Assembly: GCF_013404085.1 (NCBI RefSeq)
Contig: NZ_JABFHO010000001.1
Coordinates: 1,550,001-1,614,000, forward strand
Direction: 5' to 3'
DNA: 64,000 nucleotides
Source: Winogradskyella helgolandensis
GTDB taxonomy: Bacteria; Bacteroidota; Bacteroidia; Flavobacteriales; Flavobacteriaceae
Shown here: in pieces, positions 9,667 to 15,649 of the stretch
How the letters are laid out: the number at the start of each line of letters is the position of its first letter
How positions within the stretch are numbered: the stretch's first letter is position 1
Notes under the pieces: generated by a model
The model's input: the letters and a program-made list of their open reading frames with translations, nothing else
The model's database searches: none
Told to the model about the DNA's origin: nothing
Program-made: the position numbers and the translations under genes

Positions 9667-10563
9667 CTATTTACTCGTCAATTCTCTAAACAAACTCTCT
9701 AAACTCGCATTTTTCTGATTGAGTTGTAGAATTTTTAATTCATTATCGTGTGCAAAATCAAACACATGTGAGCGCATATCTTCTATGGTAGAAAACGTAA
9801 TCTCATAAACAAAGTCGTATGTGTTTTTTACCGCTTTTACTTTTGGTAATTTTAATAAAAAGGCATCTTCCACTCTAAAGTCAAATTCAACAATCACAAT
9901 TTGTTCTTGGCCGTCTCGTAAATCTTTTAAATATTTATCGGCAACCACTTCGCCTTTGTTAATGATTATAACACGGTCGCACATGGCCTCAACTTCTTGC
10001 ATGATATGTGTAGACAAAAACACTGTTTTTTCTTTACCAATATTTTTGATGAGGTTTCTAATATCTACTAATTGGTTAGGGTCTAAACCCGTTGTAGGTT
10101 CATCTAAAATTAATACATCAGGATTGTGCAACAACGCATTTGCCAAGCCAACACGTTGTCTGTACCCTTTAGAAAGCTGACTTATTTTTTTGTGAGCTTC
10201 TGGTTGTAATCCTGTTAATTCTATAACCTCGTCAATACGCGATTTAGGCGTGTCGTAAACATTCGCGTTAAAATTCAAATATTCTTTAACGTATAAGTCG
10301 GTATAAAGCGGATTGTGCTCTGGCAAATACCCAACACTACTTTGTACATTTTTCTTTTCTGTAGTAACATCAAATCCATTCACATTAGCAGAACCTTCAG
10401 AAGCTTCGATATACGTGGTTAGGATTTTCATCATTGTCGATTTTCCAGCACCATTAGGTCCTAAGAAACCAACGATTTCAGCATCATTTATCTTGAAAGA
10501 AACATTGTTAAGTGCTTTCTGATCTTTATAAAGTTTGGTTATATTTGAAACTTCGATGGCCAT
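9667..10563 (-). CDS. gldA: Gliding-motility ABC transporter ATP-binding protein GldA
   Basis: The 298-residue ATPase has Walker A GPNGAGKS, the signature LSKGYRQRVG, Walker B VLILDEPTTGLDP and the H-loop STHI. The N-terminus MAIEVSNITKLY and the length match GldA of Flavobacterium. In F. johnsoniae GldA works with the permease GldF and substrate-binding GldG; those genes are not in this window, as is usual because gldA is often unlinked. It stands alone, convergent with the DUF2807 gene. Confidence 0.88.
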   Translation of the reverse strand: MAIEVSNITKLYKDQKALNNVSFKINDAEIVGFLGPNGAGKSTMMKILTTYIEASEGSANVNGFDVTTEKKNVQSSVGYLPEHNPLYTDLYVKEYLNFNANVYDTPKSRIDEVIELTGLQPEAHKKISQLSKGYRQRVGLANALLHNPDVLILDEPTTGLDPNQLVDIRNLIKNIGKEKTVFLSTHIMQEVEAMCDRVIIINKGEVVADKYLKDLRDGQEQIVIVEFDFRVEDAFLLKLPKVKAVKNTYDFVYEITFSTIEDMRSHVFDFAHDNELKILQLNQKNASLESLFRELTSK

Positions 10564-10587: not shown

Positions 10588-10730
10588 GGTATTTCCGAAT
10601 ATTGTATTGCAATTATTAGTAATTCTTTAAATTTTTACAATTATTTTCAAAAAAACAATTCAACAATTTTGATTTGCGAAAATAATAATTACATTAGCGA
10701 TATAATTAAAGATTTCCACTAATGTGGAAA

Positions 10731-10787
10731 ATGAATATGAACATATCTAAAGCATATTATAACTGGTTTTATTTCTTTTTTAGCTAA
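10731..10787 (+). CDS. Aromatic amino acid leader peptide (attenuator)
   Basis: An 18-codon frame encodes MNMNISKAYYNWFYFFFS. Residues 9-17 hold eight aromatic residues (three Tyr, one Trp, four Phe) in nine. It ends 44 bases before an intrinsic terminator and 120 bases before pheA, the first gene of the Phe/Tyr/shikimate-pathway operon. This is the textbook layout of ribosome-mediated attenuation: charged aromatic tRNAs let the ribosome finish and the terminator form; shortage stalls it in the YYNWFYFFF run. The mixed Tyr/Trp/Phe content fits an operon that includes the common DAHP synthase. It fills the 343-base gene-free gap before pheA. Confidence 0.85.
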   Translation: MNMNISKAYYNWFYFFFS

Positions 10788-10792
10788 AGGAA

Positions 10793-10857
10793 CGAGACTG
10801 AGTATGTTTTATTTAAAATATAGTTTTAAAAGTCTCGATTTAATCGGGACTTTTTTT
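10793..10857 (+). terminator. Attenuator: antiterminator arm plus intrinsic terminator before pheA
   Basis: The terminator hairpin is 10831-10851 (AGTCTCGAT, loop TTA, ATCGGGACT: nine pairs with one G-T) followed by seven T. The sequence CGAGACT at 10793-10799, just after the leader peptide stop, is exactly complementary to AGTCTCG at 10831-10837, the 5' arm of the terminator. The two pairings exclude each other, so a ribosome stalled inside the leader would leave 10793-10799 free to form the antiterminator, while a ribosome at the stop codon (10785-10787) would cover it. The structure is seen directly; the mechanism is inferred. Confidence 0.85.
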
Positions 10858-10906: not shown

Positions 10907-11734
10907 GTGAAAAAACCAATAGCAATACAAGGCATTAAGGGCTCATTTCATCATGAAGTTGTTCAGCATTATTTTAATGCTGAAACAGATGTCGTTGAAT
11001 GTATGACCTTTGATAGTGTTATTGACACCTTACTCGAAGGGCAAACGGATGAAATTGTAATGGCTTTAGAAAATTCTATTGCAGGTTCAATTATACCTAA
11101 TTATGCGTTAATTGATAGTCATAACTTAAGTATAGTTGGTGAATGGTATTTAGATATTCAGCATAGTTTAATGGCTCTAGCGGAGCAATCTATTGAAGAT
11201 ATTTTAGAGGTGCATTCACATCCCATGGCGTTATTACAATGTAAACTATTTTTTAGAGATTATCCGCATATAAAATTAGTAGAAGCTAAAGATACAGCCG
11301 ATGTGGCGAAACAAATTTCAGAACAGCATATAAAAGGCATTGCAGCCATAGCAAGTAAAAATGCAGCACAATTATATGGACTTAATGTTTTGGCAGAAAG
11401 TATTCAAACTATAAAACATAATGAAACGCGTTTTGTGATTGTACGACGTGAAAATAACCAAACGGATAACAGCCATATTAATAAGGCATCTTTAAAGTTT
11501 GAATTAGATCATAAACGTGGCAGTTTAGCAGCTTTGTTAAATGTGTTGAGTGATTGCAAACTTAACCTTACCAAAATACAATCATTACCAAAAATTGATA
11601 CACCATGGAAGTATGCGTTTTTTGTAGATGTTACTTTTGTAGATTATAAAGATTACGATAAAGCGAAGTCTATTATAAGTTTAATGGCTGAGAATTTTAA
11701 AATATTGGGAGAATATAAAAATGCAAGACTATGA
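10907..11734 (+). CDS. pheA: Prephenate dehydratase (GTG start)
   Basis: The enzyme converts prephenate to phenylpyruvate for phenylalanine synthesis. In 275 residues the catalytic domain covers about 1-180 (with the NETRFVIV motif) and an ACT regulatory domain about 190-275 (KRGSLAALLNVL). The ACT motif usually read as ESRP appears as QSLP here, so allosteric binding of Phe may differ; the upstream attenuator could carry more of the control. Translation appears to start at GTG, as no suitable ATG is near. Its stop overlaps the aminotransferase start by four bases. Confidence 0.9.
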   Translation: MKKPIAIQGIKGSFHHEVVQHYFNAETDVVECMTFDSVIDTLLEGQTDEIVMALENSIAGSIIPNYALIDSHNLSIVGEWYLDIQHSLMALAEQSIEDILEVHSHPMALLQCKLFFRDYPHIKLVEAKDTADVAKQISEQHIKGIAAIASKNAAQLYGLNVLAESIQTIKHNETRFVIVRRENNQTDNSHINKASLKFELDHKRGSLAALLNVLSDCKLNLTKIQSLPKIDTPWKYAFFVDVTFVDYKDYDKAKSIISLMAENFKILGEYKNARL

Positions 11735-12873
11735 TAGAAGTTGCAAAACGTTTACAAAATGTCGAAGAATACTACTTTTCTAAGAAATTGAGAGAAGTAG
11801 CACTTTTAAAATCGCAAGGCAAACCTATTATTAATTTAGGTATTGGTAGTCCAGATTTAGAGCCGCCTTTTAAGGCCTCTATGTTGCTTCAAGATAGTTT
11901 AATTGATGAAAAAGCACACCAATATCAAAGTTACCAAGGCTTGCCAGAACTGAGAGAAGGAATTGCCAACTTTTATAAAATGCATTATGATGTAAATTTA
12001 AGTTCGCAAACCGAAGTATTACCATTAATGGGAAGCAAGGAAGGTATTATGCACATTTCTATGGCTTTTTTAAATAAAGGTGATAAAGTGTTAATTCCAA
12101 ATCCTGGATATCCGACGTACGCTTCAGTAACTAAACTTTTAGAGGCAAAACCTGTGTTTTATGATTTAAAAGAAGACAATAATTGGGAACCAGACTTTAG
12201 TGCTTTAGAGCGTTTAGATTTAAAACGTGTAAAAATTATGTGGATTAATTATCCGCACATGCCAACAGGAGCAAATGCTACTAATAAATTTTATGATAAA
12301 ATAATTGCGTTTGGAAAACGACACGATATTTTAATCGTAAATGATAATCCGTATAGTTTTATTCTGAATGATAAACCAATAAGTATTTTAAGATATAAGA
12401 ATGCAAAGGACGTTTGTTTGGAGTTGAATTCATTAAGTAAAACCTTTAATATGGCTGGCTGGAGAGTTGGAATGTTAGTTGGTAATTACGATTTTTTAAG
12501 TGCTGTTTTACGCGTGAAAAGTAATATGGATTCTGGTATGTTTTATGGTATACAAAAAGGAGCAATTGAGGCTTTAAAATGTTCTGAAATGTGGTTTAAG
12601 AGTTTGAACAGTGTGTATCAAACCCGAAGAGAACTAGTATGGAAACTGGCTCAAGGACTCAATTGTACTTATGATGAAGATGCTTCCGGATTGTTTGTTT
12701 GGGCAAAGTTGCCACCACATATGAAATCAGAAGAATTTACAGATTTAGTACTAAAGGAGCATTCCATATTTATTACACCAGGTACTGTTTTTGGAAGTAA
12801 TGGAGAGGGATATGTGCGGTTTTCGTTATGTGCAGATGAAGACATTATTAAGGAAGCGATAGCCAGAGTATAA
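11731..12873 (+). CDS. Class I/II PLP aminotransferase, probably for aromatic amino acids
   Basis: This 380-residue fold-type I aminotransferase shows NLGIGSPDL near residues 35-43, PGYPTYASV, NYPHMPTGA and the PLP-lysine region LNSLSKTFNMAGWRVG. The position between pheA and tyrA argues for transamination of phenylpyruvate and 4-hydroxyphenylpyruvate (or prephenate). Relatives annotated as LL-diaminopimelate or aspartate aminotransferases look similar, so substrate comes from context only. ATGA overlap with pheA. Confidence 0.85.
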   Translation: MIEVAKRLQNVEEYYFSKKLREVALLKSQGKPIINLGIGSPDLEPPFKASMLLQDSLIDEKAHQYQSYQGLPELREGIANFYKMHYDVNLSSQTEVLPLMGSKEGIMHISMAFLNKGDKVLIPNPGYPTYASVTKLLEAKPVFYDLKEDNNWEPDFSALERLDLKRVKIMWINYPHMPTGANATNKFYDKIIAFGKRHDILIVNDNPYSFILNDKPISILRYKNAKDVCLELNSLSKTFNMAGWRVGMLVGNYDFLSAVLRVKSNMDSGMFYGIQKGAIEALKCSEMWFKSLNSVYQTRRELVWKLAQGLNCTYDEDASGLFVWAKLPPHMKSEEFTDLVLKEHSIFITPGTVFGSNGEGYVRFSLCADEDIIKEAIARV

Positions 12874-12908: not shown

Positions 12909-13760
12909 GTGAATACTATATTTATCATAGGAGTTGGGTTAATTGGAGGAAGCTTCGCTTTGGATATAAAAAAATTACATCCAGAGTGTACCATTTTTGG
13001 TATTGATAATAATGAAGCGCATTTAGATGAGGCTATTCAACTAAAAGTTATAGATCAAAAAGCAAATTTTGAAGATTTAGAAAAAGCAGATGTCGTTATT
13101 GTAGCAATTCCTGTAGACGCAACTTTAAATGTTTTGCCTAAAGTTTTAGATGGTGTTTCAGATAATGCCATTGTTTTTGATGCAGGTTCTACCAAAGAAG
13201 ATATTTGCGACAAGGTTAGGAATCATCCAAAACGTAGAAATTATTTAGCAGTGCATCCTATTGCGGGTACGGAACATTCTGGTCCAAAAGCAGCAATTTA
13301 TAACCTGTATCAAAACAAGACCAATATTATATGTGAAGTGGAGGAAACGGCCTTCAAGCTTCAAGAAAAAGCGTTAAAGTTGTTTTCAGATTTAGGGATG
13401 CGTATTCGTTATATGAATCCTAAAGCACATGATAAACATATTGCTTATGTCTCACATTTATCGCATATAAGTGCATTTATGTTGGGGAAAACGGTTATTG
13501 ATAAAGAACGAAATGAACGCGATATTTTTGATATGGCAGGTAGTGGATTTGCGAGTACAGTGCGTTTAGCAAAAAGTTCACCAGCCATGTGGACACCTAT
13601 TTTTAAACAAAATAAAGCCAATGTTATAGAAACTTTAGAAGAATATATAGATAATCTAAAACACTTTAAGCAGTTGATGGAAGAAGATGATTTTGAGGCT
13701 GTGTATAACGAAATGGAACAAACAAATTATATAAAAGACATATTAAACGGAATACAATAG
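12909..13760 (+). CDS. tyrA: Prephenate dehydrogenase (GTG start)
   Basis: The enzyme oxidatively decarboxylates prephenate to 4-hydroxyphenylpyruvate for tyrosine. The 283-residue protein starts with the NAD-binding motif IIGVGLIGGSFAL, followed by DAGSTKEDI, HPIAGTEHSGP and SHLSHISAFML, all typical of TyrA. There is no C-terminal ACT domain. It starts with GTG, 35 bases after the aminotransferase. Together with pheA it branches prephenate to both aromatic amino acids. Confidence 0.92.
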   Translation: MNTIFIIGVGLIGGSFALDIKKLHPECTIFGIDNNEAHLDEAIQLKVIDQKANFEDLEKADVVIVAIPVDATLNVLPKVLDGVSDNAIVFDAGSTKEDICDKVRNHPKRRNYLAVHPIAGTEHSGPKAAIYNLYQNKTNIICEVEETAFKLQEKALKLFSDLGMRIRYMNPKAHDKHIAYVSHLSHISAFMLGKTVIDKERNERDIFDMAGSGFASTVRLAKSSPAMWTPIFKQNKANVIETLEEYIDNLKHFKQLMEEDDFEAVYNEMEQTNYIKDILNGIQ

Positions 13761-13781: not shown

Positions 13782-14864
13782 ATGGAAAACAAGAAAGAAA
13801 TGAGAACTTGGTTGGATGATATGAATCTAGATCATCCATTAGTAATTGCAGGTCCTTGCAGTGCGGAAACAGAAGAACAAGTATTAAGAATAGCACACGA
13901 GCTAAAAGATACCGATGTTAATTACTATAGAGCAGGTATTTGGAAACCAAGAACACGTCCAGGTAATTTTGAAGGTGTTGGAGCATTAGGCTTAAAATGG
14001 TTACAAAAAGTAAAGGCAGAAACAGGAATGAAAACCTGTACAGAAGTTGCCAATGCAGCGCATGTAAAATTAGCCTTAGAGTATGATGTAGATTTATTAT
14101 GGATTGGTGCACGTTCTACTGTGAGTCCATTCATCATGCAAGAGATTGCTGATGCTTTACAAGGAACTGATAAAATTGTATTGGTTAAAAATCCAGTAAA
14201 TCCAGATTTATCGTTATGGTTAGGTGGTATTGAAAGATTATATTCTGCAGGAATTAAAAATTTAGGTGCTATACATAGAGGTTTTTCTACGTATGAAAAG
14301 TCTAAATATAGAAATATACCAGAATGGCAATTGGCAATTGAATTTCAAAATAGATTTCCAGATTTGCCTTTAATTAATGATCCTTCTCATATAACAGGAA
14401 ATAGAGAGATGATTTTTGAAGTGTCTCAAACGGCTTTAGATCTTAACTTTGATGGGTTAATGATAGAAACGCATTTCGATCCTGAGAATGCATGGAGTGA
14501 TGCGGCACAGCAGGTAACACCAAGTAGTCTTGTTCAAATTATGAAAGACTTAAAAATCAGAAAAGAATCAGATCCTGAAGCAGAGTATAATAAAGATCTT
14601 AATAATTTAAGAGCTCAGATAGATGTTGTAGATAATCAGATTATTGATTTATTAGGCAAACGTATGAAAGTTGCTGATGGCATTGGAACTCTTAAAAAAC
14701 AAAAGAACGTGGCTGTATTACAAAACAAACGTTGGAACGAGATTTTAGGCCATATGGTACTAGAAGGAGAAGAAAGAGGGTTAAGTGAAGAATTTATTTT
14801 AAAGATGTTTAAAGCAATTCATCAAGAATCAATTAATCATCAAGAAAAGATAATCAATAAATAA
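13782..14864 (+). CDS. Bifunctional DAHP synthase / chorismate mutase
   Basis: The 360-residue fusion has an N-terminal type I-beta DAHP synthase (about 1-260; VIAGPCSAETEEQ, KPRTRPGNFEG, INDPSHITGNR) and a C-terminal AroQ chorismate mutase (about 270-355; NLRAQIDVVDNQIIDLLGKR). It therefore catalyses the entry step to the shikimate pathway and the step from chorismate to prephenate that feeds pheA and tyrA. Because chorismate also leads to tryptophan, its presence explains the Trp codon in the leader peptide. It is the last gene of the operon, followed by a strong terminator. Confidence 0.92.
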   Translation: MENKKEMRTWLDDMNLDHPLVIAGPCSAETEEQVLRIAHELKDTDVNYYRAGIWKPRTRPGNFEGVGALGLKWLQKVKAETGMKTCTEVANAAHVKLALEYDVDLLWIGARSTVSPFIMQEIADALQGTDKIVLVKNPVNPDLSLWLGGIERLYSAGIKNLGAIHRGFSTYEKSKYRNIPEWQLAIEFQNRFPDLPLINDPSHITGNREMIFEVSQTALDLNFDGLMIETHFDPENAWSDAAQQVTPSSLVQIMKDLKIRKESDPEAEYNKDLNNLRAQIDVVDNQIIDLLGKRMKVADGIGTLKKQKNVAVLQNKRWNEILGHMVLEGEERGLSEEFILKMFKAIHQESINHQEKIINK

Positions 14865-15013: not shown

Positions 15014-15649
15014 ATGAAAAAAAGTACTTTAGTCCTCATCGCCTTAAGTTTAAGTTTTTTTGCCTCGGCACAAATTTCAATAACAGGAACTGTAGCTAAC
15101 GATTCTATTCCATTAGAATCGGCCAGTGTAATTATTAAAAACTCTACCAACGGAATTGCTACAAATGAAAAAGGAGAATTTAAACTTGAAGCAAAAAAAG
15201 GGGATACCTTAGTTGTTTCTTATTTAGGCTATGAAACTAAAGAGCTTGTTTTAAATAACACTGAGGAAATAGGAATTAATCTTGAAGAAGATAGTTTTGA
15301 TGAGGTTGTAATTGTTGGATATCAAAATGTTACTAAAACATGGTATAAAAGAGCTTGTGGTGGGTTCAGTGTAGAAAAATCTGAGCTGTACAATAAATCT
15401 GAGAAAAGAAATAAACTCTTCCCAAACCCATCTTCAAATGGCATTTTCCAATTAAAGTTGGTGGAAGATTATGATGAAGTTAAAATTTCAATAGCGAATA
15501 GTTCTGGTCAAATGCTTAAAAAGACGACACATCAAAAGTTTGGAGAGAATATAATTATTGATGTCTCGCAATTTGCGGCAGGATTATATATAGTAAGTAT
15601 CATAGCAGATGGAAAACAATTAGAATCTATCAAAGCGATAAAAAGTTAA
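15014..15649 (+). CDS. Secreted protein with CarboxypepD_reg-like domain and T9SS sorting domain
   Basis: The 211-residue protein has a signal peptide (to about residue 20), a carboxypeptidase regulatory-like beta-sandwich (about 22-85; ITGTVANDSIPLESASVIIK ... YLGYETKELVL) and a type A T9SS C-terminal sorting domain (about 135-211; LFPNPSSNGIFQL ... AAGLYIVSI). There is no enzymatic domain between them. The function is unknown; secretion to the surface is inferred from the sorting domain. It is flanked by two almost identical terminators. Confidence 0.8.
   Translation: MKKSTLVLIALSLSFFASAQISITGTVANDSIPLESASVIIKNSTNGIATNEKGEFKLEAKKGDTLVVSYLGYETKELVLNNTEEIGINLEEDSFDEVVIVGYQNVTKTWYKRACGGFSVEKSELYNKSEKRNKLFPNPSSNGIFQLKLVEDYDEVKISIANSSGQMLKKTTHQKFGENIIIDVSQFAAGLYIVSIIADGKQLESIKAIKS

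Follow-up and report, generated by a model that had tools for sequence, protein, structure and literature searches.

A predicted ribosome-mediated attenuator with mixed aromatic codons upstream of the pheA operon in Winogradskyella helgolandensis and its relatives

The region upstream of pheA in Winogradskyella helgolandensis very probably (probability about 0.92) carries a ribosome-mediated transcription attenuator of an operon that encodes prephenate dehydratase, an aminotransferase, prephenate dehydrogenase, and a DAHP synthase/chorismate mutase fusion. A conserved leader, a near-fixed geometry, covariation, a stall model, and the content of the operon together point to ribosome-mediated attenuation. 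Conservation, covariation, and the near-fixed ribosome geometry strongly support a leader-peptide attenuator with a terminator and an antiterminator, and on the same sequence-based grounds the attenuation mechanism put forward in the initial annotation appears to stand. Attenuators of this kind are known, and the present element is a widespread member with mixed aromatic codons. For the cell, we infer the transcription start, termination, stalling, and the amino acid response.

The DNA analyzed, referred to as the window, is a stretch of 64,000 nucleotides (assembly GCF_013404085.1, contig NZ_JABFHO010000001.1, positions 1,550,001-1,614,000, forward strand), and all coordinates below are window positions. 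The relevant features are as follows:

10668..10697, plus strand: promoter-like TTTG-N18-TACATTAG, by consensus match, with a predicted transcription start a few bases past 10697
10737..10787, plus strand: leader ORF MNISKAYYNWFYFFFS, ending in TAA at 10785-10787, from the sequence and the conserved start at 10737
10755..10781, plus strand: control block with codons YYNWFYFFF, the 3' part of which doubles as region 1
10765..10799, plus strand: possible protector hairpin 1:2, pairing block codons with region 2, -8.4 kcal/mol, seen in folding only
10793..10799, plus strand: region 2, CGAGACT, the predicted 5' arm of the antiterminator
10793..10837, plus strand: predicted antiterminator hairpin 2:3 with an inner A+U stem, -13.9 kcal/mol, from folding and covariation
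10828..10857, plus strand: candidate terminator hairpin 3:4, -12.5 kcal/mol, with a T run at 10851-10857, from sequence and folding
10907..11734, plus strand: pheA, prephenate dehydratase, with a GTG start; NCBIfam NF008865 at 197.9 bits, the best of four families, yet below its cut-off of 219
11731..12873, plus strand: aminotransferase, probably with an aromatic substrate; it matches aminotransferase families, none of the best 25 of 70 matches reaching the cut-off
12909..13760, plus strand: tyrA, prephenate dehydrogenase; NF006307 at 397.9 bits, above its cut-off of 295
13782..14864, plus strand: DAHP synthase/chorismate mutase fusion; NF009239 at 187.4 bits, below its cut-off of 279, and chorismate mutase domain matches

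According to the proposed mechanism, transcription would begin just before the leader ORF and a ribosome would translate the leader. When charged Phe- or Tyr-tRNA is short (and here probably also Trp-tRNA), the ribosome would stall in YYNWFYFFF with its leading edge halted just short of CGAGACT. This segment would then pair with the 5' arm of the terminator, and the resulting antiterminator would allow the polymerase to continue into pheA. When aromatic amino acids are ample, the ribosome would reach the stop codon and cover CGAGACT, the terminator would form, and transcription would end near 10857.

The leader frame holds three in-frame ATGs, at 10722, 10731, and 10737. From the ATG at 10731, it reads MNMNISKAYYNWFYFFFS up to the TAA at 10785-10787, and the frame of 18 codons that was initially described, with eight aromatic residues in codons 9-17, is present in the sequence. 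The length needs correction: the leader probably has 16 rather than 18 codons, since in four loci of the same genus (L004, L005, L006, and L008), whose leaders begin with MNIS or MSIS, the sole ATG of the open frame is the counterpart of 10737. A block of this composition is rare. The window contains one stop-free stretch of nine codons with at least eight aromatic residues, against a simulated mean of 0.2 (20 sequences of 64 kb), and across the 4.6 Mb genome of the species a search with the block pattern hits a single place, while the reversed control hits none. By this pattern, no second copy of the attenuator element was found in the genome.

Conservation among the sequences compared is the decisive evidence that the observation exceeds chance. 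pheA was found in 15 of 21 near genomes and in 228 of 249 genomes of the same family. The 116 oriented pheA loci comprise 15 near-genome loci, 100 fetched loci, and the window; they cover 102 of the 228 pheA-positive family genomes (100 fetched, the window, and that of L008), and the 126 others, which include all lower-ranked matches beyond those listed, lie outside this set. One locus (L016) occupies the same place as another (L013), and among the 115 distinct loci an aromatic-codon leader precedes pheA in 114, in agreement with the conserved mini-ORF that had been predicted for Flavobacteriaceae. The exception, L015, is a distant pheA without a leader, and the counts below refer to the remaining 114. 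The leader peptides are diverse, with 108 distinct sequences, and the final three block codons are aromatic in all 114 loci (the very last one by definition), which suggests that the block ends about where a ribosome would start to cover region 2. In one scan of a genome-contig collection, DNA coding for YYNWFYFFF or YFNWFYFFF occurred in 92 stretches. As many as 82 of them stand 78-195 nt before pheA, and named records among these belong to Winogradskyella, Psychroserpens, Mangrovimonas, and Meridianimaribacter; of the other ten, five lie in leader-like frames that are cut off before pheA would be visible and five lie elsewhere.

The promoter-like site is one that we take to be the -33/-7 promoter type of Bacteroidota. 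In 80 of 114 loci, the 110 nt that precede the leader contain the consensus TTTG-N17..21-TAnnTTnG; the mean for first-order Markov controls is 0.9. A transcription start downstream of 10731, which would speak against attenuation by this leader, is not what the sequence suggests; the predicted promoter lies upstream, at 10668-10697. On the other side of the leader, the GTG of pheA at 10907 begins 49 bases past the T run and the operon ends with the DAHP synthase/chorismate mutase fusion, both as first annotated. The gene order is kept in all 100 loci long enough to show it. Divergently from the operon and with a common intergenic region, the minus strand carries gldA (9667-10563), which encodes a gliding motility ABC transporter ATPase (TIGR03522, above the cut-off). 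Directly after the operon, 15014-15649 encodes a small protein whose N-terminal stretch resembles SusC/RagA and whose C-terminal tail is of the type IX secretion sorting kind (TIGR04183, above the cut-off).

Between the leader ORF and pheA there is a hairpin followed by a T run that resembles an intrinsic terminator and is a candidate for that function. Its stem reaches 12 bp (10828-10839 with 10843-10854). The hairpin had first been delimited as 10831-10851 followed by seven T; hairpin and T run are both present, although the first T is the last base of the stem. CGAGACT at 10793-10799 is the exact complement of AGTCTCG at 10831-10837 in the terminator 5' arm, as had been pointed out, and a mutually exclusive antiterminator that uses this arm, a feature of the attenuator class, can be drawn. 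Hairpins 2:3 and 3:4 are closely balanced by folding in the window, and the 1:2 protector is weaker than either; in 40 of the 114 loci across the set, 3:4 is more stable than 2:3. The leader RNA is more stable than 200 shuffled versions (z = -2.84). The best hairpin before a T run scores at least 17.4 in all 114 leader loci, compared with 4.9 in the leaderless L015.

The spacing between block and region 2 is nearly fixed. With the terminator anchored on the T run and the first base of the last aromatic codon as the origin of distances, region 3 finds a six-base complement at +14 nt in 63 of 114 loci and at +13 in 28 (91 together), while every other offset from 3 to 39 gives all six pairs in no locus or one. 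Five or six pairs at +13 or +14 are found in 106 of 114 loci; in seven, the best complement lies at another offset (11, 15, 16, or 17). This spacing would place the start of region 2 about where a stalled ribosome ends. The pairing segments, taken as triplets, also shift together across clades, for example CGAGAC/GTCTCG/CGGGAC, CGGGAC/GTCCCG/CGGGAC, CGGAAC/GTTCCG/CGGAAC, and CAGGGC/GTCCTG/CAGGGC. For 30 distinct triplets from 107 rows (offset chosen as the best among 11-18, the seven loci of 114 with offsets other than 13 or 14 dropped), pairing of 2:3 was present in 93.3% of cells versus 70.9% in shuffles, and double changes numbered 37 versus 10.0; neither statistic was reached in any of 2000 shuffles. 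The covarying stems anticipated in the initial annotation are thereby borne out for 2:3. These shuffles ignore relatedness, and the offset scan, which keeps it, agrees. The terminator arms were picked by a hairpin search, so that the corresponding 4:3 figure is tilted towards pairing.

In the stall model, the A site was placed on each codon in turn and 12 nt beyond the first base of that codon were masked; the calculation is an equilibrium one on a truncated RNA, namely that made before region 4 exists. For the window, the predicted probability of 2:3 lies at 0.99-1.00 throughout YYNWFYFFF, drops to 0.67 one codon later, and is 0.00 on the stop codon. Stalls on the earlier non-aromatic codons also give 0.97-0.99, so that the model speaks for the geometry but does not reveal the amino acid that is sensed. 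Averaged over the 114 loci, the probability is about 0.95 inside the block and 0 for positions from 6 nt ahead of region 2 onward, with about 0.95 for stalls on Y, W, or F codons and 0.00 at the stop codon. When the footprint is varied from 9 to 15 nt, the value falls from 0.94 to 0.50 on the last aromatic codon and from 0.93 to 0.00 on the following one, and stays at or below 0.05 at the stop codon throughout. As modelled, a stall thus frees the antiterminator arm and a ribosome at the stop position masks it. Without a ribosome, the probability of 2:3 is 0.87 in the window and 0.63 on average; an untranslated leader may therefore antiterminate or terminate poorly, which differs from textbook trp attenuation. 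In 101 of 114 loci, the stop codon of the leader begins past the start of region 2; in the other 13, among them the window, it begins ahead of region 2, where ribosome release could raise basal read-through. If the element works as modelled, transcription-translation coupling over the leader would be required in Bacteroidota.

Two readings that dispense with stalling at codons for scarce amino acids can be weighed against these data. The leader could be an arrest peptide, similar to TnaC, whose nascent aromatic-rich chain stalls the ribosome upon binding of a free amino acid; the peptide is indeed very unusual and its aromatic character is conserved, but the order and identity of the aromatic residues vary (YYNWFYFFF, YFWNGFYFYFFF, FFFNGFYFYFFF, YFNYYYFF) and only the aromatic class near the block end is fixed. 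The residues after the block coincide with region 2, and the constraint on the RNA can explain them, which further argues against an arrest peptide and leaves it very improbable. It is also conceivable that the hairpins work without translation, as a protein- or metabolite-bound terminator of the riboswitch or T-box type to which the ORF is incidental. The close balance of 2:3 and 3:4 by folding would suit such a device. Against it stand the nearly constant distance between the last aromatic codon and region 2, the 101 loci in which the frame runs into region 2, and the lack of any Rfam match at gathering level in the window; we regard a translation-free switch as extremely unlikely. Membership in a known Rfam family was likewise rejected, none being found at the gathering threshold within the window. 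At the site itself, RF01859 (Phe_leader) reached 25 bits (E 0.044), below its cut-off of 55, and RF01692 (Bacteroid-trp) was absent at gathering level in the window; the six Rfam matches with E values of up to 10 at the site include neither RF01692 nor a T-box.

Ribosome-mediated attenuation leaves the question of which amino acids are sensed. The initial annotation proposed one leader for Phe, Tyr, and Trp together. This proposal is supported in part. Codons for Phe and Tyr occur in all 114 leaders; the Trp codon, present in the window, occurs in 76 and is absent in 38, so that control codons for all three aromatic amino acids are not conserved across relatives. Mapped on a tree built from the DAHP synthases of 100 loci, the Trp codon is gained or lost 23 times, at least seven of these changes falling on starred branches; with shuffled labels the mean is 29.6 (2 of 500 as low), which indicates weak clustering. 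The share of W among aromatic residues is 0.073 in the leader blocks and 0.073 in 12 ORFs of the window. In leaders that lack W, its place is often taken by Y or F, as in YFWNGFYFYFFF versus YFYNGFFFYFFF or NWFYFFF versus NFFYFFF.

Several causes for the presence of the Trp codon were considered in 80 of the 100 fetched genomes; all 20 left out carry the codon. A second DAHP synthase was rejected, as each of the 80 has one strong match. The other listed matches are 29-33% identical, as expected for KDO8P synthase. In the genome of W. helgolandensis, the fusion at 13782-14864 is likewise the only DAHP synthase found, the other PF00793 match being a KDO8P synthase. One family member (G166), unlike the 80, has two strong DAHP synthase/chorismate mutase matches on different contigs. 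Trp prototrophy was also rejected; Anth_synt_I_N (TrpE/PabB type) is found in 80 of 80 genomes, with a strong match in 79, and the one without (G148) still carries the Trp codon (L080). Loss of the codon where a trp leader takes over was not supported: RF01692 is present in 41 of the 44 genomes that have the codon and in 28 of the 36 that lack it, a difference in the opposite direction (Fisher p 0.057 over the 80 genomes, relatedness ignored).

The genome of W. helgolandensis contains such a leader outside the window (G000:C1:4227753-4227874, L145; RF01692, 68.6 bits). It encodes the peptide MKINTNHTWWWNFSNLRS, has a terminator-like hairpin, and is the only RF01692 match found in the genome, which by sequence thus holds two separate aromatic leaders. 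Among the relatives, 61 of the 69 with RF01692 exceed the cut-off (stricter filters), and WWW occurs in a short frame in 28 of 30 fetched matches.

With Trp variable, a W share equal to that of the window ORFs, no explanation for W among the causes considered, and a separate trp leader, the conserved core function is likely the sensing of Phe and Tyr, as judged from the sequences. Trp sensing would be a variable addition, possible in the window species but secondary. The rather doubtful alternative that Phe, Tyr, and Trp are sensed about equally, so that limitation of any of them would open the only DAHP synthase, can point to the single Trp codon of the window inside the effective part of the block, to a modelled 2:3 probability of about 0.94 for Trp-codon stalls in the 76 leaders that have one, and to the single strong DAHP synthase match in the window genome and the 80 relatives. 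However, 38 of 114 leaders lack the codon, the 36 genomes among the 80 whose leaders are without it also have a single strong DAHP synthase match and an anthranilate-synthase-type match, the W share equals that of the window ORFs, 69 of 80 relatives have a separate trp leader, and one Trp codon stands against several codons for Phe and Tyr. In the part cited here, a theoretical study explains the greater sensitivity of the his attenuator by its more numerous control codons and their larger fraction (PMC1183508); this, too, speaks against a strong response to Trp through a single codon.

A more speculative proposal, which we consider unlikely as it stands, is that the leader gauges total aromatic supply: an aromatic codon would be kept at each block position while its identity is nearly free, and the mix of W, F, and Y would drift to a proteome-like composition. 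If this were true, one old attenuator of Bacteroidia would respond to any aromatic shortage roughly in proportion to demand; the element would set flux into the sole DAHP synthase and fine control by Trp would fall to the separate trp leader. Independently of this proposal, the natural variation in Trp codons and stop positions provides ready comparisons for determining which codons a mixed leader senses.

Attenuation of ilvGMEDA and thr in enterobacteria also depends on leaders with control codons for several amino acids; theirs are branched-chain or Thr/Ile, not aromatic. Bacteroid-trp RNA (RF01692) occurs in the same genomes and, as the present element probably does, attenuates an aromatic operon through a leader; it differs in the WWW run of that leader and in standing before the trp operon. 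The E. coli pheA leader (pheL, RF01859) shares a control-codon-rich ORF, competition between terminator and antiterminator, and the position before pheA. According to the section cited, it responds to Phe-charged tRNA (PMC11802643), whereas the present leader mixes Phe codons with codons for Tyr and often Trp; the present operon also adds tyrA and DAHP synthase. The aroR leader of Corynebacterium glutamicum (Phe-Tyr-Phe), located before aroF, is similar in its mixed Phe/Tyr codons and in controlling an operon with DAHP synthase, but has a shorter control run and belongs to another phylum. As summarized there, it responds to Phe and not to Tyr (Neshat et al. 2014, via PMC11802643), so that codons alone are not proof of sensing. 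Phe is listed among amino acids with attenuators and Tyr among those with T-boxes in the portion cited of PMC1262725.

A structured 5' element upstream of pheA has been reported in Flavobacterium psychrophilum and other Flavobacteriaceae; it is conserved in other genera, has no Rfam hit, and is presented with clues to leader-peptide attenuation before amino acid operons (PMC9723704, in the section cited). It concerns the same gene and probably the same bacterial family, the match being by description rather than by sequence. In that section, pheA is not assigned a peptide, codons, an antiterminator, or a mechanism. Our analysis offers a proposed mechanism that specifies codons and both hairpins for the kind of pheA element reported there without one, and it may place the entry to aromatic synthesis and both the Phe and Tyr branches under one mixed-codon leader in a large environmental family. 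Among the matches listed from the open-licence literature, no described Phe/Tyr/Trp leader in Bacteroidota was found besides this report.

The element may reach beyond the family. Other families of the order are represented by four pheA loci: L011, L012, and L014 have the leader, hairpin, and complement, and L015 is without them. The pheA of L015 is 31% identical and its upstream frame appears thioesterase-like by eye. Out of 40 regions around DAHP synthase genes (39 labelled same class and one same order), 12 have a recognizable pheA, and in nine of these an aromatic window (at least five of nine), a strong hairpin, and a T run precede it; the thresholds were set by eye after seeing the rows, so that this reach is indicative. 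Seven of the nine have a complement to the 5' arm and two contain W. One of the 28 regions without pheA (L210) has a leader and hairpin: its aromatic mini-ORF MNWHKAYFFYYSPSRD, strong hairpin, and T run stand about 170 nt before DAHP synthase instead of pheA.
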